A stretch of DNA of 64,000 bases, taken from NCBI RefSeq assembly GCF_039621805.1, contig NZ_CP155073.1, positions 1,612,001-1,676,000 of the forward strand, in the 5' to 3' direction. The notes below the pieces were generated by a model. The model was not told the origin of the DNA. It did not search any database and saw only the letters and a program-made list of their open reading frames with translations. The stretch comes from Paraburkholderia sp. PREW-6R. GTDB lineage: Bacteria; Pseudomonadota; Gammaproteobacteria; Burkholderiales; Burkholderiaceae. A program made the position numbers and the translations under genes. Positions 1 through 9,365 of this stretch are shown piece after piece. Each line of letters starts with the position of its first letter. Positions within the stretch are counted from its first letter, which is position 1.

Positions 1-254
1 GATGCGCTCATCGTGCAAGGGATCGAAGCCCCGCGGTGAGACGCACGAAACACTGCGCTGTGTTTCGCTCCGACGTGATGCGATGTGTTCCGTCGAGCGT
101 GCGCAGCAGCGCATCACGTCGACTCGATTGCCTTGATGCAAGGATTACGCCATCAGATGATATTCACGCGGCAGTCGCCTGCAAATGCACGCCCGCCAAT
201 GCGCAAGAACCGTTCGACCCTACGTGCCTGACTGCTTGCACGCGCGTGCGTGCC
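1..254. other. Upstream flank without a recognised gene
   Basis: No gene is supported here. An open frame does run through the region, but its arginine- and cysteine-rich translation resembles no family. It would also extend into the regulatory hairpins in front of nirB, so I read the stretch as the distal part of the nirB control region or the end of an unseen upstream gene. Confidence 0.5.
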
Positions 255-388: not shown

Positions 389-405
389 TTGGCATAGGCT
401 TTGCA
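389..405 (+). promoter_or_regulatory. Sigma-54 (-24/-12) promoter of the nirBD-nas operon
   Basis: The sequence TTGGCATAGGCTTTGCA carries the invariant GG (391-392) and GC (403-404) separated by exactly 10 bases, as in the TGGCAC-N5-TTGCA consensus of RpoN promoters. Transcription would start near 416, a few bases before the first leader hairpin. The tandem NtrC-like dyads upstream support the assignment. Confidence 0.65.
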
Positions 406-419
406 TTAGGCATTCGCAG

Positions 420-492
420 CGGATCAACGCAGATCCGTTGCGGGCGCAACAACAAGGCGCTCGCCGCAGCACAGGTCAGGACAACGGCGTCC
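420..492 (+). promoter_or_regulatory. ANTAR-type antiterminator leader (P1/P2 hairpins)
   Basis: P1 is a perfect six-pair stem (420-425 with 432-437) closing the hexaloop AACGCA. P2 is a four-pair stem (479-482 with 489-492) closing the hexaloop AACGGC. Both loops have A at position 1 and G at position 4, the hallmark of RNAs bound by ANTAR proteins such as NasR and NasT. P2 uses bases 484-492, which also form the 5' arm of the terminator, so the two structures exclude each other. A short linker hairpin (TTGC/GCAA, 438-449) lies between; the 41-base P1-P2 gap is longer than in many examples. Nitrate control is inferred from the genes downstream. Confidence 0.7.
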
Positions 493-537
493 CCTGAATT
501 CAGTCTTCAACTGGATTCGCGGGACGCCGTTTTTTTT
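484..537 (+). terminator. Intrinsic terminator (attenuator) in the nirB leader
   Basis: A perfect 10-pair GC-rich stem (484-493 with 521-530) is extended by an inner eight-pair stem (496-503 with 511-518, one G-T pair) around a seven-base loop. Eight T residues follow at 530-537. It ends about 48 bases before the nirB start codon and after the predicted promoter, so it should stop transcription unless P2 of the ANTAR leader forms instead. Confidence 0.85.
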
Positions 538-584: not shown

Positions 585-3125
585 ATGAAAATCATCGTTA
601 TCGGTCACGGAATGGTCGGCCACAAACTCGTGGAATGCCTCGCGCAAAACGCGGCGCACGGACTCGACATCACAGTGCTGTGCGAAGAATCGCGGCCCGC
701 CTATGACCGGGTGCATCTGTCGGAATTCTTTGCGGGCAAGACTGCCGATGATCTGTCGCTGGTCGAACCGGGTTTCTTCGAACGCCAGAACGTACTGATC
801 AAACTGAGCGCGAAAGCCGTGTCGATCGATCGCGAAGCGCGCACGGTGACCGTCTCGACCGGCGAAACGCTCGCCTACGACAAACTGGTGTTCGCTACGG
901 GCTCCTATCCATTCGTGCCGCCGCTGCAGGGCCGCGAACGCGCGGATTGCTTCGTGTACCGAACGATCGATGATCTCGAAGCCATGCAGGAATGCGGTGC
1001 GCGCTCGAAAACCGGCACGGTGGTCGGCGGCGGCCTGTTGGGCCTCGAATGCGCGAAGGCGTTGCGCGACATGGGCCTCGTCACGCACGTCGTCGAATTC
1101 GCGCCGCGTCTGATGGCGGTTCAGGTCGACGAAGGCGGCGGACGCGTGCTGCGCACGAAGATCGAAGCTCTCGGCGTCACCGTGCATACGGAGAAGAACA
1201 CCACGGCGATCGTCGACGGCGAAGCGGGCACGCATCGAATGCAATTTGCCGACGGCAGCTATCTCGACACGGACATGATCGTGTTTTCCGCAGGCATTCG
1301 TCCCCGCGACGACCTTGCTCGCGAGAGCGGTCTCACGCTCGGCCCGCGCGGCGGCATCGTGATCGACAACGCGTGCCGCACCAGCGATCCAGACATCTAC
1401 GCAATCGGCGAATGTGCATTGTGGAACGGTCAGTTATTTGGCCTCGTCGCGCCCGGTTACGACATGGCGCGCGCGGTGGCGAAGCAACTGCTCGGCGACA
1501 ACGCTGAATTTGCCGGCGCCGACATGAGCACCAAGCTCAAGCTGATGGGAGTGGACGTCGCGAGCATTGGCGACGCGCACGGCAAGACGCCGGGCAGCCG
1601 CGCGTATCAGTTCAGCGACGAGCGCAAGCAGGTCTACAAGAAGCTGGTGGTGTCCGAATGCGGCAAATATCTGCTCGGTGGCGTGATGGTGGGCGACGCA
1701 AGCGAATACGGCACGCTATTGCAGATGATGCTTAACCGGATCGAACTGCCCGAAGCGCCTGAATTCCTGATCCTGCCTCAAGCGGACGGCCATGCGAAAC
1801 CCGCGCTCGGCGTGGGCTCGCTGCCGGCTTCGGCGCAAATCTGTTCGTGCAACAACGTCTCGAAGGGCGAGTTGTGCGCGGCGGTCTGCGCCGGCGCGAC
1901 CGACATCGGCGCGCTCAAATGTGCGACCACAGCCGGCACCTCGTGCGGCGGCTGCGTGCCGCTCGTCACGCAGGTCATGAAGGCCGAAATGAAGAAGCAG
2001 GGGCTCGCAGTCAACAATCACGTGTGCGAGCACTTCCCGTTTTCGCGCCAGGAGCTTTATCACATCGTTCGCGTGGAAGGTGTGCGCAGCTTCGCCGAGT
2101 TGCTCGCCACGCACGGCCGCGGTCTCGGCTGCGATATCTGCAAGCCGGCAGTGGCCAGCATTCTTGCTTCGTGCTGGAACGAGTTCGTGTTGAAGAAAGA
2201 GCACGCGTCGCTGCAGGACAGCAACGATTACTACCTCGCCAATATCCAGCGCGACGGCACCTATTCGGTCGTGCCGCGTATGGCGGGCGGCGAAGTTACG
2301 CCCGACGGCCTGATCGCGGTCGGTCAGGTCGCGAAGAAATACGGCCTATATACGAAGATCACCGGTGGTCAGCGGGTCGATCTGTTCGGCGCACGTGTCG
2401 AACAGTTGCCGCTCATCTGGGAAGAACTGATCGCAGCCGGTTTCGAATCGGGGCATGCGTATGGCAAGTCGCTGCGTACCGTGAAGTCGTGCGTCGGCTC
2501 GACTTGGTGCCGCTATGGCGTCGGCGATTCCGTCGGCCTCGCGGTTGAGATCGAGAACCGCTACAAGGGACTGCGCACGCCGCACAAGATCAAGTTCGGC
2601 GTGTCGGGATGCACGCGCGAATGCGCGGAAGCCCAGGGCAAGGACGTCGGCATCATCGCCACCGAGAAGGGCTGGAACCTGTACGTGTGCGGCAACGGCG
2701 GCATGAAGCCGCGTCATGCCGAGCTGCTCGCGTCGGACCTCGACAAGGCAACGCTGGTGCGCTACATCGACCGCTTCCTGATGTTTTACGTGCGCACCGC
2801 GGACCGTTTGCAGCGCACGAGCGTCTGGCGCGACAACCTGGAAGGCGGCCTTCCGTATCTGATCGACGTGGTGGTCAACGACCGTCTTGGCGTCGCCGCC
2901 GAACTCGAAAGCGAGATGCAGCACGTGGTGAACACCTACGAATGTGAATGGAAGAAGGCGGTCAACGATCCCGAAACGCGTAAGCGCTTCCGTCATTTCG
3001 TCAATAGCGGCGAGTCCGATAGCAATGTCACGTTCGTCGAGGAGCGCGGCCAGATTCGCCCGGCGACGTCTGCTGAGCGGCTATCGAAACTCGCGGCCAT
3101 TCCTGTCGTCGTCGAAACCGTCTGA
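585..3125 (+). CDS. nirB: Nitrite reductase [NAD(P)H], large subunit
   Basis: Cytoplasmic assimilatory nitrite reductase (nitrite to ammonium), 846 aa, the usual length. An FAD-binding GHGMVG stretch starts the protein and a second dinucleotide motif, GGGLLGLE, lies at residues 148-155. A BFD-like [2Fe-2S] region (CSCNNVSKGEL, then CGGC) follows around 420-465. The sulfite/nitrite reductase core has the siroheme-[4Fe-4S] ligands as CX5C (C636, C642) and CX3C (C676, C680). The ATG follows an AGGA-like site. It is the first gene of an operon with nirD 45 bases downstream and the nitrate reductase fusion next, all behind the attenuated sigma-54 leader. Confidence 0.97.
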   Translation: MKIIVIGHGMVGHKLVECLAQNAAHGLDITVLCEESRPAYDRVHLSEFFAGKTADDLSLVEPGFFERQNVLIKLSAKAVSIDREARTVTVSTGETLAYDKLVFATGSYPFVPPLQGRERADCFVYRTIDDLEAMQECGARSKTGTVVGGGLLGLECAKALRDMGLVTHVVEFAPRLMAVQVDEGGGRVLRTKIEALGVTVHTEKNTTAIVDGEAGTHRMQFADGSYLDTDMIVFSAGIRPRDDLARESGLTLGPRGGIVIDNACRTSDPDIYAIGECALWNGQLFGLVAPGYDMARAVAKQLLGDNAEFAGADMSTKLKLMGVDVASIGDAHGKTPGSRAYQFSDERKQVYKKLVVSECGKYLLGGVMVGDASEYGTLLQMMLNRIELPEAPEFLILPQADGHAKPALGVGSLPASAQICSCNNVSKGELCAAVCAGATDIGALKCATTAGTSCGGCVPLVTQVMKAEMKKQGLAVNNHVCEHFPFSRQELYHIVRVEGVRSFAELLATHGRGLGCDICKPAVASILASCWNEFVLKKEHASLQDSNDYYLANIQRDGTYSVVPRMAGGEVTPDGLIAVGQVAKKYGLYTKITGGQRVDLFGARVEQLPLIWEELIAAGFESGHAYGKSLRTVKSCVGSTWCRYGVGDSVGLAVEIENRYKGLRTPHKIKFGVSGCTRECAEAQGKDVGIIATEKGWNLYVCGNGGMKPRHAELLASDLDKATLVRYIDRFLMFYVRTADRLQRTSVWRDNLEGGLPYLIDVVVNDRLGVAAELESEMQHVVNTYECEWKKAVNDPETRKRFRHFVNSGESDSNVTFVEERGQIRPATSAERLSKLAAIPVVVETV

Positions 3126-3169
3126 TCCTGTTTTCACTGCTTTTACCGCTATTGAACGGAGTTTGCGCC

Positions 3170-3538
3170 ATGAATATCGAGCACCTGCCGCTTGCCTGGA
3201 CACCCGTTTGCCCGCTCGAGGACATCGTGCCCAACACGGGTGTCTGTGCGCTCGTCGACGGGGAACAGGTGGCCGTGTTTCACGTCGATACCGGCAGCGA
3301 CGAGGCGCGGGTCTATGCAATTGGAAATTACGATCCGGGTTCGCAGGCGGCCGTGCTGTCGCGCGGACTGATCGGCAGTCTCGGCGAGCGCATCGTGGTT
3401 GCCTCGCCCATCTATAAGCACCACTTCGATCTGCGCACCGGCGAATGCATCGAAACGCCGGCCTATTCGGTCAGCGCATTCGCCGCGCGAGTGGAAAACG
3501 GCCAGGTGTGGGTCGCTTCCGGCTGCGTGCAATCCTGA
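3170..3538 (+). CDS. nirD: Nitrite reductase [NAD(P)H], small subunit
   Basis: 122-aa partner of NirB with a Rieske-like fold. The family lacks the iron-sulfur ligands of true Rieske proteins, and no CxH...CxxH pair is visible here; the segment HHFDLRTGEC occupies the place of the second Rieske box. The start was set at ATG 3170 because ACGGAG sits eight bases upstream; an in-frame TTG at 3152 has no such support. The gene lies between nirB and the nitrate reductase fusion and is expected to be co-transcribed with them. Confidence 0.93.
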   Translation: MNIEHLPLAWTPVCPLEDIVPNTGVCALVDGEQVAVFHVDTGSDEARVYAIGNYDPGSQAAVLSRGLIGSLGERIVVASPIYKHHFDLRTGECIETPAYSVSAFAARVENGQVWVASGCVQS

Positions 3539-3550
3539 AGCCGATCACGA

Positions 3551-6500
3551 GTGAGTTCGCCTGTCATGTCCCCCACTAGCGTGAAAACCGTGTGTCCCTA
3601 TTGCGGCGTCGGCTGCGGCATGGTGCTGCACGTCGAACGTGGAGAGGTCGTGAAGATCTCCGGCGACAAGGAGCATCCGGCGAACTTTGGCCGGCTGTGT
3701 ACGAAAGGCCAGTCCGCGCATTTCGCCTTGCGCAAGTCCGGGCGTCTTGAAGGCGCGTTCGTGCGGCATGCGCGCGGTCAGGATCTCGCGCCGCTTCCAA
3801 TGGCGCAGGCCATCCGTACCACAGCTGCCCGCTTGCGCGGCCTGCTCGACGAGCACGGCCCGCAAGCGTTGTCGTTCTATGTGTCCGGCCAGATGTCGAT
3901 CGAGGCGCAGTATCTCGTCAACAAGCTGGCGAAAGGATTTGTCGGCACCCATAACATCGAATCGAATTCGCGCCTGTGCATGGCAAGCGCAGGCAGCGGC
4001 TACAAGCTTTCGCTCGGCGCCGACGGGCCGCCCGGCTCGTACGAGGACATCGATCATGCGGACCTGTTCTTCGTGATCGGCGCGAATATGGCCGACTGTC
4101 ACCCGATTCTGTTCCTGCGCATGATGGACCGCGTGAAAGCCGGCGCAAAATTGATCGTGGTCGATCCGCGCCGCAATACCACTGCGGAGAAGGCTGACCT
4201 GTTCCTGCAGATCAAACCCGGCACTGATCTCGCGCTGCTCAACGGGCTGCTGCATCTGCTGCACGAAAACGGCCATACGGATGCGGCTTTCATCGCCGAA
4301 GCAACCGAAGGCTGGGACGCGATGCCCGCATTTCTGGCGGACTACACGCCGGAAAAGGTCGCGGCAATTACCGGTTTGAGCGAGCACGACATTCGCCGCG
4401 CCGCGCAGATGATCGGCGCCGCGCCCGAGTGGATCAGCTGCTGGACCATGGGTCTGAATCAGAGCACGCACGGCACGTGGCATACGAACGCGATCTGCAA
4501 TCTGCATCTGGCGACGGGCAAAATCTGCCGTCGCGGCAGCGGGCCGCTCTCGTTGACAGGACAGCCGAATGCAATGGGCGGCCGCGAGATGGGGTATATG
4601 GGGCCCGGCTTGCCGGGGCAGCGTTCGGTGCTGGTCGAAGAAGACCGTGCATTTATCGAGGACTTGTGGGGCATCGCGCGCGGCGCGTTGAAGCCCACGG
4701 CCGGTCACGGCACGATCGACATGTTCTCGCGCATGGCGGCAGGTGAGATCAAGGCATGCTGGATCATCTGCACGAATCCGGTGGCGAGCGTCGCCAACCG
4801 GCAGAACGCCATTGCCGGTTTGCGCGCGGCGGAACTGGTGATCGCGCAGGACGCGTTTCTCGACACCGAAACCAACCGCTACGCGGACGTGCTGCTGCCC
4901 GGCGCGTTGTGGGCCGAAGCGCAAGGCGTGATGATCAACTCCGAGCGCAACCTTACGCTGATGCAAAAAGGCGTCGAACCGCCGGGCGCGGCGTTGCCGG
5001 ACTGGCAGATCATTGCGCGCGTCGCGTGCGAAATGGGCTACGCCGATGCATTCAGCTACACGAGCGCCGAAGAAGTCTTTGCGGAAATCACCCGCGCATC
5101 GAATCCGAAAACGGGGTATGACCTGCGCGGCGCGAGTCATCGCCGGCTGAAAGAAACGCCGTTGCAGTGGCCGATCGCGTCGGCCACCGCGCATGATCGC
5201 AATCCCATCCGCTACCTGAACGACGGCGTGAGCCAGACGCTCAGCGAATCGCCCGACGGCACGCGCGCGCGACTCGTATTCCCGACCGCGAGCGGCAAGG
5301 CCATGTTTTTCGCACGCGCGTATGCAGCGCCGGCGGAGTTGCCGGATCGCGAGTTTCCGATCGTGCTGAACACCGGCCGCCTGCAACACCAATGGCACAC
5401 GATGACCAAAACCGGCAAGGTTGCGATGCTCAACAAGCTCAATCCGCGGCCATTCGTCGAGATTCATCCGGAAGATGCGGCCACGTTGGGCATCAAACCC
5501 GAGGACCCCGTCGAGATCCGTTCGCGCAGGGGCCGCGCGGTGCTGCCCGCGGTCCTCACTGAACGCGTGAGTGCGGGCAACTGCTTTGCGCCAATGCATT
5601 GGAACGACGTGTTCGGCGACGACCTGTGCATCAATGCGGTAACGAGCGATGCGACCGACGCGATCTCCCAGCAACCCGAACTCAAATTCTGCGCCGTCGC
5701 GCTGACGCCTGTCACGGTTCCGGCGATCGAGCCTGGTGCGCAGCGCGAGACTGCGCATACCGCCGCTGCCCACGACGTACCTGTCTCGACGGCGAGCGCG
5801 ACATTGGCGCGTGCCGGGGAATCGACCATGTCCGCTATCGACGCCCTAACGAGTCTGCTGCAATTGCCGCCGACGCCCGCACCGTCTTTTACTGAAAGCG
5901 AGCACACCTATCTGGCGGGTTTCGTGAGCGCGCTGCGTTCGACACAGGCGCAAGGCGATGGCACAGGACCGGTGCCCGTGTTGCCGGCAAGTGCGCCGTT
6001 TAACGCACATCATCGGCTGTATGTCGATGGGCTGCTCGCCGGCCTGTATAGCCGGAGCGCGACGCTTTGGCCAGCGCCCGCGTCCATTGCCGCAACGACG
6101 CCGCAGCCGGCAGACACCGAATCGGGCGTGCGTATCGTGCGTGCGCGGCCCAAGGTCACTTTGCTGTGGGCATCGCAAACCGGCAATACGGAGTCGCTCG
6201 TCGAGCGTTACGCAACCCGTCTGATGGAATCGGGTTTCGAGATTCGCACGTCATGCATGGCGGAATACGACGCTTCGTCACTCGCGAAAGCGCAGTATGT
6301 GTTGCTGATGACCAGCACGTTCGGCGACGGCGATTCGCCCGACAATGCGCAGGACTTCTGGAATCATTTGAACGCCGGTACGGCTTCACGTCTTGACGGC
6401 GTGCGTTTCGCGGTGCTCGCGCTCGGCGATCGCAACTACGATCAGTTCTGCGGTCACGGGCGCCGCCTCGATGAGCGCCTCGCCGCACTGGGCGCGCTGC

Positions 6501-7768
6501 GTCTGCTGGATCGCGTGGATTGCGACAGCGAGTATCAGGAAACCGCGGATGCATGGCTCGAACGCGTGGTCGTGCGCATCAACGAGGAGGATGCCGCGCT
6601 TCACGCCGTGCCGCCCGACGGCATGATCAACGCGGTCGTGCCGGGCATCGTCCCGACGAGGACGCGACCTGCCGCGTCGCGCGTTGTGACCAATCGGCGT
6701 CTGAACAAAGAGGGCGCCGCGAAGGATACGCGTTACGTGTCGTTGAGTACGGGCGATGCCGGCATCGAATACGAAGCGGGCGATGCACTCGGTGTATGGC
6801 CCAGTAACTGTCCCGAACTGGTCGACGAGTTGCTCGTGCTCGGCGGCTTGAGTGGGCACACGCCGGTGCATGTGTCCGGTGTCGGTGACATGTCGCTAGC
6901 CGATGCGCTTACGCGACATTATGAAATTGCACGTCCGAATCCCGATGCGCTGACATTCATCGCCGAGCGCAGCAACAACGGTGCGCTGCGCGAGCTGCTC
7001 AAACCCGAGCGTAAGGCGGAGCTCAAGCACTGGTTGTGGGGACAGCAACTGGCCGACGTACTGCACGAATTTCCAGTCGAGCTTACCGCACCCGAGCTGA
7101 CCGGCATGCTTAAACGCTTGCAGCCGCGCTTGTACTCCATCGCGTCGAGCCCGAAAGCGCATCCCGGCGAAGTGCATCTGACCGTATCGGCGGTTCGCTA
7201 CAGCAATGGGCGGCGCAACAGGAAGGGCGTGTCCTCCACGTTTCTCGCCGATCGCGCCGCTGACGGCAACGTCCCCGTCTTCGTGCAGAAGTCGGCCCAT
7301 TTTCGTCCTCCTCATCATTCTGACACGCCGATGATCATGGTCGGCCCCGGTACGGGCGTTGCACCGTTTCGCGGCTTTCTGCACGAGCGGCGTGCACGCG
7401 GCGACACGGGACGCAACTGGCTTTTCTTCGGCGAGCAGCATGCCGACACCGATTTCTACTATCGCGACGAACTCGAGGCGCTGCGCGAGAGCGGGGTGCT
7501 GACGCGACTCGACGTCGCTTTCTCGCGGGATCAGGCGCAGAAAATCTATGTACAGGATCGCATGCGCGAGCAGGGCGCGCAGTTGTGGGCATGGCTCGAA
7601 GAGGGGGCTCATTTTTATGTCTGCGGCGACGCAAACCGGATGGCAAAGGATGTCGATGCGGCGCTCAAGGAAGTGGTCGCGCGGCACGGCGGCATGAGCG
7701 AGGACAAAGCGCATGAATACGTGAGCCGGCTCGCGCGCGATAAGCGCTATGCGCGTGACGTTTATTGA
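3551..7768 (+). CDS. Assimilatory nitrate reductase fused to CysJ-like diflavin reductase
   Basis: About 1,405 aa in two enzyme modules. Residues 1-720 form a NasA-type bis-MGD molybdenum reductase: [4Fe-4S] ligands C15, C18, C22 and C50, and a probable Mo-ligand cysteine near 143 in RLCMASA. After a 110-residue Ala/Pro-rich linker comes a flavodoxin domain from about 865 (WASQTGNTES). FAD- and NADPH-binding domains follow as in CysJ (RLYSIASS near 1193, GPGTGVAPFRGF near 1264), ending ...RDVY. NADPH electrons can thus reach the Mo centre within one chain; the C-terminal BFD domain of Klebsiella NasA is absent. The start may be GTG 3551 or ATG 3566; GAGTGAG before the latter makes it plausible. 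This fusion is annotated in other Burkholderiaceae. Confidence 0.93.
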   Translation: MSSPVMSPTSVKTVCPYCGVGCGMVLHVERGEVVKISGDKEHPANFGRLCTKGQSAHFALRKSGRLEGAFVRHARGQDLAPLPMAQAIRTTAARLRGLLDEHGPQALSFYVSGQMSIEAQYLVNKLAKGFVGTHNIESNSRLCMASAGSGYKLSLGADGPPGSYEDIDHADLFFVIGANMADCHPILFLRMMDRVKAGAKLIVVDPRRNTTAEKADLFLQIKPGTDLALLNGLLHLLHENGHTDAAFIAEATEGWDAMPAFLADYTPEKVAAITGLSEHDIRRAAQMIGAAPEWISCWTMGLNQSTHGTWHTNAICNLHLATGKICRRGSGPLSLTGQPNAMGGREMGYMGPGLPGQRSVLVEEDRAFIEDLWGIARGALKPTAGHGTIDMFSRMAAGEIKACWIICTNPVASVANRQNAIAGLRAAELVIAQDAFLDTETNRYADVLLPGALWAEAQGVMINSERNLTLMQKGVEPPGAALPDWQIIARVACEMGYADAFSYTSAEEVFAEITRASNPKTGYDLRGASHRRLKETPLQWPIASATAHDRNPIRYLNDGVSQTLSESPDGTRARLVFPTASGKAMFFARAYAAPAELPDREFPIVLNTGRLQHQWHTMTKTGKVAMLNKLNPRPFVEIHPEDAATLGIKPEDPVEIRSRRGRAVLPAVLTERVSAGNCFAPMHWNDVFGDDLCINAVTSDATDAISQQPELKFCAVALTPVTVPAIEPGAQRETAHTAAAHDVPVSTASATLARAGESTMSAIDALTSLLQLPPTPAPSFTESEHTYLAGFVSALRSTQAQGDGTGPVPVLPASAPFNAHHRLYVDGLLAGLYSRSATLWPAPASIAATTPQPADTESGVRIVRARPKVTLLWASQTGNTESLVERYATRLMESGFEIRTSCMAEYDASSLAKAQYVLLMTSTFGDGDSPDNAQDFWNHLNAGTASRLDGVRFAVLALGDRNYDQFCGHGRRLDERLAALGALRLLDRVDCDSEYQETADAWLERVVVRINEEDAALHAVPPDGMINAVVPGIVPTRTRPAASRVVTNRRLNKEGAAKDTRYVSLSTGDAGIEYEAGDALGVWPSNCPELVDELLVLGGLSGHTPVHVSGVGDMSLADALTRHYEIARPNPDALTFIAERSNNGALRELLKPERKAELKHWLWGQQLADVLHEFPVELTAPELTGMLKRLQPRLYSIASSPKAHPGEVHLTVSAVRYSNGRRNRKGVSSTFLADRAADGNVPVFVQKSAHFRPPHHSDTPMIMVGPGTGVAPFRGFLHERRARGDTGRNWLFFGEQHADTDFYYRDELEALRESGVLTRLDVAFSRDQAQKIYVQDRMREQGAQLWAWLEEGAHFYVCGDANRMAKDVDAALKEVVARHGGMSEDKAHEYVSRLARDKRYARDVY

Positions 7769-7997
7769 TGAATGCGTCGATGCATCGACAGAAAGGGTGG
7801 CCGATGCGGGCCATGCGAGACGAGTTCTGAAAGTTCGAACGATTGAAAAAGTAAGCGGGAAACAGCTTGAACCGATGCACCCCCGATGGCATGGACGTTG
7901 CATGTTCGGACGGGTTTTCGAATCGTCATCATTCCGGTGCATAAGGTCAAACGCAGCCGCCCGGATGAGCGACAAATCCGTTTAATGAGGATGTCTG
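7769..7997. other. Gap between nitrate reductase and transporter
   Basis: A 229-base spacer. It contains a perfect 14-bp palindrome, GTCGATGCATCGAC, at 7776-7789, but no T-run terminator or clear promoter. The transporter may be read from the nirB promoter or from its own unrecognised one. Confidence 0.4.
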
Positions 7998-9365
7998 ATG
8001 AAAAACGTGATGAATTCCTTGAAGAGTGGAGACTGGCGCGCGCTCGTCGCCTGTTTCCTCTATTTCGACACCGGCTTCACGGTCTGGGTGTTGTATGGAC
8101 CGCTCGCCCCGTTTATCAGCAAGAGCATTGCCATGACGCCGGCGCAACAAGGCCTTCTGGTCGCCGTACCTGTGCTGTCGGCCGCGATTCTGCGCGTGAC
8201 GCTCGGCAATCTGTACCAGTCGGCTCACGGCAAGCGGATTGCGCTGATGGGCGTGCTGCTGTCTGCGGTGCCGACGATCGTGTTGCCGCTGCTGCCATCC
8301 GTTCCGTCATACACCTTGCTGCTCGTGCTCGGCGTATTCCTCGGCGTGGGCGGCGCAAGCTTCGCGGTGGCGCTGCCGATGGCCGGGAGCAACTATCCGC
8401 CGAAGGTGCAAGGTCTCGTGCTGGGACTTGCAGCGGCCGGCAACATTGGCGCGGTGCTCGACGGGTTCCTGTTTCCGCAGCTTGCCACGCATTATGGCTG
8501 GCAAATGGCCGCCGGGGGCGCGCTGCCGTTGCTTGCCATTGCGGCGATCACGCTCTATTTCTGGGCGAACGACGCGGGCGTCAAGTCAGGCAGCGTGGTG
8601 CGTGCATTTGCCAGCTTCGCGGTGACGCTGGCCGGGCTCATCGTACTGGTGCTGCTCGTCGAAGCAGGACTGTTCGGCTCAGGGAAGACGGGCGTGCTGA
8701 TCCTGCCGGTTGTCGGCGCGCTGCTGGCCATCGCCGTCTTGCCCAGGCGCTATCGTGCTGTCCTCGCCGAGCGTGATACGTGGGTCATCATGCTGGTGTA
8801 CAGCATTACGTTTGGCGGATTCGTCGGCATGTCCTCGTACGTGACGCTGCTGCTCACGAATCTCTACCAGCTCTCGAAGATAGACGCGGGTCTGTTCATG
8901 GCGCTCCTTGCTGCAACCGGCGCGATGGTGCGCCCGCTCGGCGGCCTGATTGCCGACAGAATCTCCGGTGTGCGCGCGCTGACGTTTCTGCTGGCGATCA
9001 TCTCGCTGTGCGACTTCCTGTTCGCCGCCGTCATGCCGACCATCGTGCCGGGCATTGCGTTGCTGTTGTGTCTTTACGTGGCGTTCGGGCTCGGCAACGG
9101 CGCGACGTTCCAGCTCGTGCCGCATCGCTGGGCCGGGCGCACCGGCCTGATGTCGGGCATCGTGGGAGCGGCGGGCGGTATCGGCGGCTTTTATCTGCCC
9201 GTCATCATGGGCATGGCGAAGGAAAGCACGGGCAGCTACCAGATGGGCTTCGCGACGTTCGGCGTGCTGGCAGCCTGTGCGTTCATGGCGATCGTTGCGC
9301 TGCGCCGCCCGTGGATGGCGTGGTCGATGCAAGGCGGTGTGATGCATGCGCACGCCACGGAGTGA
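7998..9365 (+). CDS. narK: NarK-type nitrate/nitrite MFS transporter
   Basis: 455-aa inner-membrane protein of the major facilitator superfamily, nitrate/nitrite porter family. Both nitrate-signature stretches are visible: a glycine-rich helix with GVGGASFAVALPMAGSNYPP near residues 115-135, and GLGNGATFQLVPHRW followed by GLMSGIVGAAGGIGG near 365-395. The ATG is preceded by GAGG eight bases upstream. Its place after nirBD and the nitrate reductase indicates uptake of nitrate for assimilation. NarK1 (symport) and NarK2 (antiport) types are not distinguished here. Confidence 0.9.
   Translation: MKNVMNSLKSGDWRALVACFLYFDTGFTVWVLYGPLAPFISKSIAMTPAQQGLLVAVPVLSAAILRVTLGNLYQSAHGKRIALMGVLLSAVPTIVLPLLPSVPSYTLLLVLGVFLGVGGASFAVALPMAGSNYPPKVQGLVLGLAAAGNIGAVLDGFLFPQLATHYGWQMAAGGALPLLAIAAITLYFWANDAGVKSGSVVRAFASFAVTLAGLIVLVLLVEAGLFGSGKTGVLILPVVGALLAIAVLPRRYRAVLAERDTWVIMLVYSITFGGFVGMSSYVTLLLTNLYQLSKIDAGLFMALLAATGAMVRPLGGLIADRISGVRALTFLLAIISLCDFLFAAVMPTIVPGIALLLCLYVAFGLGNGATFQLVPHRWAGRTGLMSGIVGAAGGIGGFYLPVIMGMAKESTGSYQMGFATFGVLAACAFMAIVALRRPWMAWSMQGGVMHAHATE

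Follow-up and report, generated by a model that had tools for sequence, protein, structure and literature searches.

A predicted NasT-type antitermination leader with a long, folded linker upstream of nirB in Paraburkholderia sp. PREW-6R

The segment at positions 416-537 of the window (the 64-kb stretch of DNA that was analysed) is almost certainly a nitrate-controlled NasT antitermination switch of known type, placed as the leader of nirB. On the published view, ANTAR antitermination works with two hairpins whose spacing is strictly limited; in the revised model one protein dimer moves from a recruitment hairpin to an antiterminator hairpin. The leader in the window is a new case of this known system, and its architecture lies outside the published two-hairpin, short-linker description. 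The window is located on contig 1 of a four-contig genome of 7.0 Mb, and the closest relatives of its nirB belong to Paraburkholderia. The genes behind the leader are:

585-3125 (+), nirB, assimilatory nitrite reductase large subunit (NCBIfam TIGR02374 and PRK14989, above cut-off)
3152-3538 (+), nirD, nitrite reductase small subunit (TIGR02378, above cut-off)
3551-7768 (+), nasA, nitrate reductase catalytic domain fused to a CysJ-like flavoprotein (Pfam and NCBIfam matches)
7998-9365 (+), narK-type nitrate/nitrite transporter (TIGR00886, E 1e-75, below the curated cut-off; MFS_1)

The frame at 3551-7768 is a single one of 1405 aa, in which a NasA-type nitrate reductase is followed by a CysJ-like flavodoxin/FAD/NAD reductase, and this fusion suggests that the enzyme carries its own electron supply.

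Two A1/G4 hexaloop hairpins, P1 (loop AACGCA) and P2 (loop AACGGC), were found in the leader, together with a middle hairpin (Pm), whose 9-nt loop, AACAACAAG, lacks G4, and an intrinsic terminator:

416-441 (+), P1 hairpin: 10-bp stem 416-425/432-441 with one G-U pair, hexaloop at 426-431
440-464 (+), Pm, the middle (linker) hairpin: clade consensus stem 440-447/457-464, best fold 442-447/457-462
479-492 (+), P2 antiterminator hairpin, GGAC-AACGGC-GTCC: 4-bp stem 479-482/489-492, loop at 483-488
483-531 (+), intrinsic terminator hairpin: lower stem of 11 bp (483-493/521-531), upper stem of 10 bp (495-504/510-519)

Bases 440-441 can pair alternatively in P1 or in Pm, and the P2 stem may be extended by UCA/UGA across a CC bulge. 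The terminator hairpin is directly followed by eight U (530-537), and nirB starts 48 nt 3' of the terminator. Because the loop and the 3' arm of P2 (483-492) lie within the 5' arm of the terminator, the two structures are mutually exclusive; when the distal terminator arm is left out of the fold, P1, Pm and P2 coexist. With that arm present, the terminator fold (-33.7 kcal/mol, z -7.9) outcompetes P2 (-5.0 kcal/mol alone), so that termination should be the default; the leader as a whole folds with z = -7.3. A scan for an A1/G4 hairpin of at least 6 bp located 20-110 nt 5' of an A1/G4 P2 that overlaps a terminator returned the full architecture once on the two strands of the window and not at all in 40 random windows of equal length (first-order Markov). 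An earlier sequence-only reading had described two A1/G4 hexaloop hairpins and a mutually exclusive terminator before nirB, and the folding and the random windows agree with it. Its perfect P1 stem is indeed fully paired over 10 bp, one pair being G-U, and its 10-pair terminator does overlap P2 but is stronger than was stated (11 + 10 bp). The 41-base linker with a hairpin of its own corresponds to the ~41 nt obtained with the 6-bp P1 core common to relatives (37 nt with the 10-bp P1), and that hairpin is conserved; ~14 unpaired nt lie between the folded Pm and P2.

The features used by Ramesh 2012 to define ANTAR targets are present: two hexaloops, each with A1 and G4, on stems of 3 bp or more and joined by a variable linker, a P2 overlapping an intrinsic terminator in the correct orientation, and an ANTAR protein within the same genome (one NasT). 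The short linker of the compact dual-hexaloop (EutV-type) leader is absent, since the distance is 37-41 nt and falls to ~14 nt only if Pm is counted as folded away.

The leader is conserved in the relatives and covaries. The bases A1, A2 and G4 of the P1 loop do not vary among 25 relatives; P1 and the terminator together contain 10 pairs with two-sided (compensatory) changes, a number as high as which occurred in 0 of 500 shuffles, and the changes of the terminator are located in its upper stem. For Pm, 96.6% of the cells are paired in 11 close relatives and one pair shows a C-G to U-A exchange (P1 and Pm jointly: 2 of 500 shuffles as high). The loop and stem of P2 are near-invariant among related leaders, the stem having almost no variation of its own within the genus because the terminator constrains the identical bases; distant relatives carry the arm variants AGAC/GTCT, CGAC/GTCG and GGGC/GCCC, with the exclusivity of P2 and terminator kept. 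The compensatory changes that the sequence-only reading had named as its support were thus seen in P1 and the terminator, while P2 is uninformative within the genus and offers only the distant arm variants. Loss of the two hairpins from relatives, which the same reading had named as fatal to it, is not what the alignments contain: the relatives keep both.

Upstream of P1, a candidate promoter and two putative activator sites were identified:

255-269 (unstranded), NtrC-like site GCAC-N7-GTGC, GCACGCCGAGGGTGC (motif scan)
276-290 (unstranded), NtrC-like site GCAC-N7-GTGC, GCACCATCCGTGTGC (motif scan)
389-406 (+), predicted sigma54 (-24/-12) promoter of nirB, TTGGCATAGGCTTTGCAT, GG and GC 12 nt apart, consensus score 29/33

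If the C of the -12 GC (404) is taken as -12, the predicted start falls on base 416, with which P1 begins, and not downstream of 490, the other outcome held in advance to be fatal. A start just before the first hairpin (here predicted at ~416) is characteristic of NasT/NalA-type leaders, and the sigma54 promoter lies 0-5 nt 5' of P1 in nearly all relatives. Among the 15 same-genus loci printed, counterparts of the NtrC-like sites occur at -134 to -137 from the nirB promoter in 14 (site 255-269) and at -113 to -116 in all 15 (site 276-290). NalA of P. aeruginosa has the same kind of sigma54 promoter (PMC3973561), and RNA-seq of B. cenocepacia found that nirB, the nitrate reductase, the transporter, uroporphyrinogen methyltransferase and nasT fall in an ntrC mutant (PMC5491218).

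At gathering thresholds, a search of Rfam yielded nothing in the window. Below them, P11 (RF00625) aligned over its full length at 378-528 with 29.6 bits and E 2.6e-4 (gathering cut-off 70 bits), and narK RNA (RF03032) reached 17.3 bits with E 1.7 (cut-off 43.2 bits); a sub-threshold match to ASdes was taken as chance. In Pseudomonas, a sigma54/NtrC promoter and NasT antitermination of nirBD are established for NalA (PMC12830290, PMC3973561), the NalA/P11 leader of nirBD going back to Romeo et al. 2012 as that work is described in the same two papers. The window shares with NalA/P11 the sigma54 promoter, the 5' A1/G4 hairpin, a P2 of the form GGAC-AAxGGC-GTCC over the terminator, the nirB gene and the type of regulator. 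It differs by a longer linker with a conserved hairpin, where the P11 model has ~21 nt, and by a separate second leader on the divergent cobA, whereas Pseudomonas has one nirBD-cobA operon. The EutV leaders (Enterococcus eutP; PMC3369931, PMC8934654) also have two A1/G4 hexaloops, the second exclusive with a terminator, and a receiver-ANTAR protein; however, their linkers are 5-12 nt long, with impairment at 14 nt, compared to 37-41 nt with an inserted hairpin here, and EutV is activated by a kinase but NasT by release from NasS. Published surveys took two hairpins with short linkers for granted; the one of actinobacterial ANTAR targets (PMC8164766) has linkers of 2-25 nt. The NasR leader of Klebsiella nasF is likewise a nitrate-responsive ANTAR antitermination device of assimilation genes, although NasR has its own NIT nitrate sensor and NasS and NasT are separate here. 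The nasA leader of Paracoccus, with NasST control and two leader hairpins, HI and HII (PMC3795266, PMC5424462), is bound by NasT (PMC3795266); nasTS adjoin nasA in Paracoccus but lie on another replicon here.

The genome encodes one ANTAR protein, a receiver+ANTAR protein (NasT), followed by an adjoining NMT1_2 protein (NasS), the arrangement expected of the NasT/NalA type. Since the nasT-nasS pair (G000:C2 ~682354-684091, L001) is on a different replicon from both leaders, regulation would be in trans; at several Caballeronia and Burkholderia loci, nasT-nasS adjoin cobA and nirB. In an alignment, NasT retains the loop-contact residues of EutV, R142, K143, E160, Y164, M172 and N173 (contacts from PMC8934654), and departs from EutV at R175 (G) and R177 (K). 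A blind search of other genera of the class (369 genomes) with R1, a covariance model built from the leader family, gave 29 matches outside the own genome, 26 of them at most 1.5 kb from homologues of nasT, nasS/nrtA, nirB or narK. Across 349 Burkholderiales genomes, an ANTAR protein is present in 84 of 86 with a leader compared to 85 of 263 without (Fisher p 4e-30, which overstates independence because genomes share ancestry; the contrast is still large). Model R2 found no match in 91 of the 249 of the family sample (about one third). The P11 match below threshold, the covariation, the presence of NasT with NasS and the co-occurrence with ANTAR proteins all speak for the NasR/NasT-type antitermination proposed from the sequence, with two-component NasT, not NasR, as the right comparison because the sensor is the separate NasS.

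On this basis it is highly likely that the element is a NasT-dependent, NalA/P11-type antitermination leader of a nirB-nirD-nasA-narK operon, in which NasT binding and the response to nitrate would run as follows. When nitrogen is short, NtrC-driven sigma54 polymerase would start at ~416. With nitrate and nitrite absent, NasS would hold NasT and the terminator (483-537) would halt transcription before nirB; with either present, NasT would be released by NasS. P1, made first, would catch NasT by its A1/G4 loop, and NasT would then hold P2, whose loop and 3' arm form the 5' arm of the terminator, giving read-through. Pm may fold away most of the 37-41 nt linker and so bring P1 near P2 for the hand-over.

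The same segment might instead encode a small RNA that acts on its own and has its 3' end at the terminator; P11, the closest Rfam family, is filed as a Pseudomonas sRNA 'Gene', and the strong terminator would by default give a stable RNA of ~120 nt. We consider this very unlikely, because the segment lies directly 5' of nirB in relatives, homologous leaders precede cobA, narK and nasS/nrtA genes, the P2/terminator exclusivity is kept, and P11/NalA is itself described as a nirBD leader (PMC12830290). The terminated RNA could, however, sponge NasT. It is extremely improbable that the terminator merely serves to close an upstream or antisense transcript and that the A1/G4 loops arose by chance: intergenic intrinsic terminators are common, but the invariant P1 loop bases, the empty set of random windows and the ANTAR co-occurrence argue against it, and since the upstream gene, cobA, is divergent, there is no upstream transcript for the terminator to end.

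A 14-nt linker impairs EutV function in vivo and 20 additional nt abolish it in vitro (PMC3369931; PMC8934654), and as EutV tolerates only short linkers, the 37-41 nt found here call for the added assumption that Pm folds, which would shorten the effective distance to ~14 nt. Alternatively, Pm might be a mere by-product that protects the RNA or avoids misfolding, NasT reaching P2 over a flexible linker or through larger oligomers; to this we assign somewhat less than an even chance. Among relatives the linker is between 34 and 67 nt long, a perfect middle stem of at least 5 bp is missing from some Caballeronia and Paraburkholderia leaders, and NasT oligomerizes once released from NasS (PMC3795266), all of which would fit a by-product. 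Against it, compensatory changes keep Pm in close relatives, strong stems with unrelated loops recur in Burkholderia, Cupriavidus, Ralstonia and Pandoraea, and the position of Pm is that of a conserved ANTAR loop in other families.

That loop is best seen in the Oxalobacteraceae (Massilia, Duganella, Rugamonas, Janthinobacterium, Herbaspirillum and Collimonas), where a third ANTAR-type hairpin with a covarying stem occupies the Pm position, 1-12 nt 5' of P2; all 26 aligned sequences have A1, A2 and G4 in its loop. Because some of these loci had been picked for showing an A1/G4 middle loop, the count was repeated without that selection: a strict scan recovered an A1/G4 middle hexaloop in 26 of the 28 Oxalobacteraceae leaders, and in the two misses (L060 and L086) the loop is present with a mismatched stem. 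The middle loops were classified by register, and A1 can pair with U6. The strict scan found such a loop in 0 of 37 leaders of the window's clade (Paraburkholderia, Burkholderia, Caballeronia, Cupriavidus, Ralstonia and Pandoraea), and for want of a middle A1/G4 hexaloop the window leader falls outside a three-hexaloop class as defined from the Oxalobacteraceae. Downstream hexaloop hairpins in leaders are of the A1/G4 kind in 32 cases, against 8 with any other combination. Leaders with three A1/G4 loops were also seen in at least six further families of the order, as sampled with a model that includes the middle hairpin and hence favours leaders having one, and in three families of the class outside the order.

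In the three-loop leaders, the middle loop mostly starts 17-29 nt before the P2 loop and the 5' P1 loop 50-65 nt before it, and the loop starts in eutP are 24 nt apart (A29 and A53; PMC3369931). This similarity in spacing makes the middle hairpin the counterpart of the classical (EutV) P1, and the 5' P1 at the transcription start is probably the extra element. In the window's clade the binding loop is kept only by the 5' hairpin and not by the middle one, and the simplest reading is that the middle loop was lost there. We suggest tentatively, and with rather less than even confidence, that many Burkholderiales NasT leaders belong to a separate three-hexaloop class, with one hairpin 5' at the transcription start, one where the classical leader recruits its protein, and P2 on the terminator. 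NasT would be relayed along these loops as the RNA emerges, and in the window's clade the middle binding bases would have been lost and the fold kept as a spacer, leaving the 5' hairpin as sole recruiter over a linker that exceeds what the EutV mechanism is known to span. The searchable literature, to which key subscription papers do not belong, contained no description of conserved three-loop leaders, which is therefore no proof of novelty; Burkholderia was already among the ANTAR RNA matches of Ramesh 2012 (PMC3369931). EutX RNA of Enterococcus, with one hexaloop beyond the dual motif (PMC8934654), is a partial precedent, although it is a sequestering RNA and not a terminator-exclusive leader, and its additional loop has not been reported to be a conserved middle hairpin. 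Three-loop leaders and their sisters without the middle binding bases amount to a natural experiment on which loop recruits, how far the hand-over reaches and whether folding makes a long linker short enough. Surveys that allow only two loops and a short linker would overlook such leaders or pair their hairpins wrongly.

A second leader of the same type is predicted on the divergent cobA:

136-153 (-), candidate sigma54 promoter of cobA, ATGGCGTAATCCTTGCAT, score 26.5/33, predicted start ~126
45-68 (-), P1 of the second NasT-type leader, GCGAAACAC-AGCGCA-GTGTTTCGT (R1 match)

It spans 45-153 of the window (minus strand; G000:C1 ~1611935-1612126, L032 ~7935-8126), with P1, linker and promoter inside the window and P2 and terminator 15-65 nt beyond its left edge. 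The R1 search of the own genome gave exactly two clear leaders, those of nirB and cobA (E 7.6e-27 and 1.8e-4); a third match (C1:1868027, E 1.96) was dropped, as no P2 with terminator was seen. The divergent nirB/cobA pair with one leader each recurs in relatives, and the P1 stem sequences differ; at one relative locus (L012) loop position 1 is U. The product of cobA (SUMT) acts in the synthesis of siroheme, which NirB needs. With a NasT leader of its own on cobA, the genes for enzyme and cofactor should respond together, under one RNA-level switch. A perfect 12-bp inverted repeat, CGACGTGATGCG / CGCATCACGTCG, lies at window 71-82 and 110-121, between the predicted cobA start and the cobA P1.

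The Rfam narK RNA resembles the window leader in that its genomic matches combine a sigma54 promoter and an A1/G4 hairpin with an A1/G4 P2 and a terminator, and stand before narK/nrtA-like genes; it is listed as a cis-regulatory RNA, with a compact linker and a model without P2 pairs. Since A1/G4 hairpins and a terminator are present in the genomic matches of both, narK RNA and P11 look like ANTAR leaders under different names; a description of narK RNA as an ANTAR leader was not found in the searchable literature, key subscription papers being outside this scope. The two models match identical elements (L131, L149, L150) and both begin on the sigma54 promoter; in the P11 model the first hairpin drawn lies over the -24/-12 promoter, and in the narK model no pairs are given to the A1/G4 P2 (L131, L147-L150, L157). 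In some relatives (L046, L049, L052, G012 C2, G024 C2, G028 C26 and G932 C29) two NasT leaders stand in tandem, ~1.4-2.6 kb apart, so that one cluster has repeated checkpoints; where examined, a NarK-like transporter gene lies between them.
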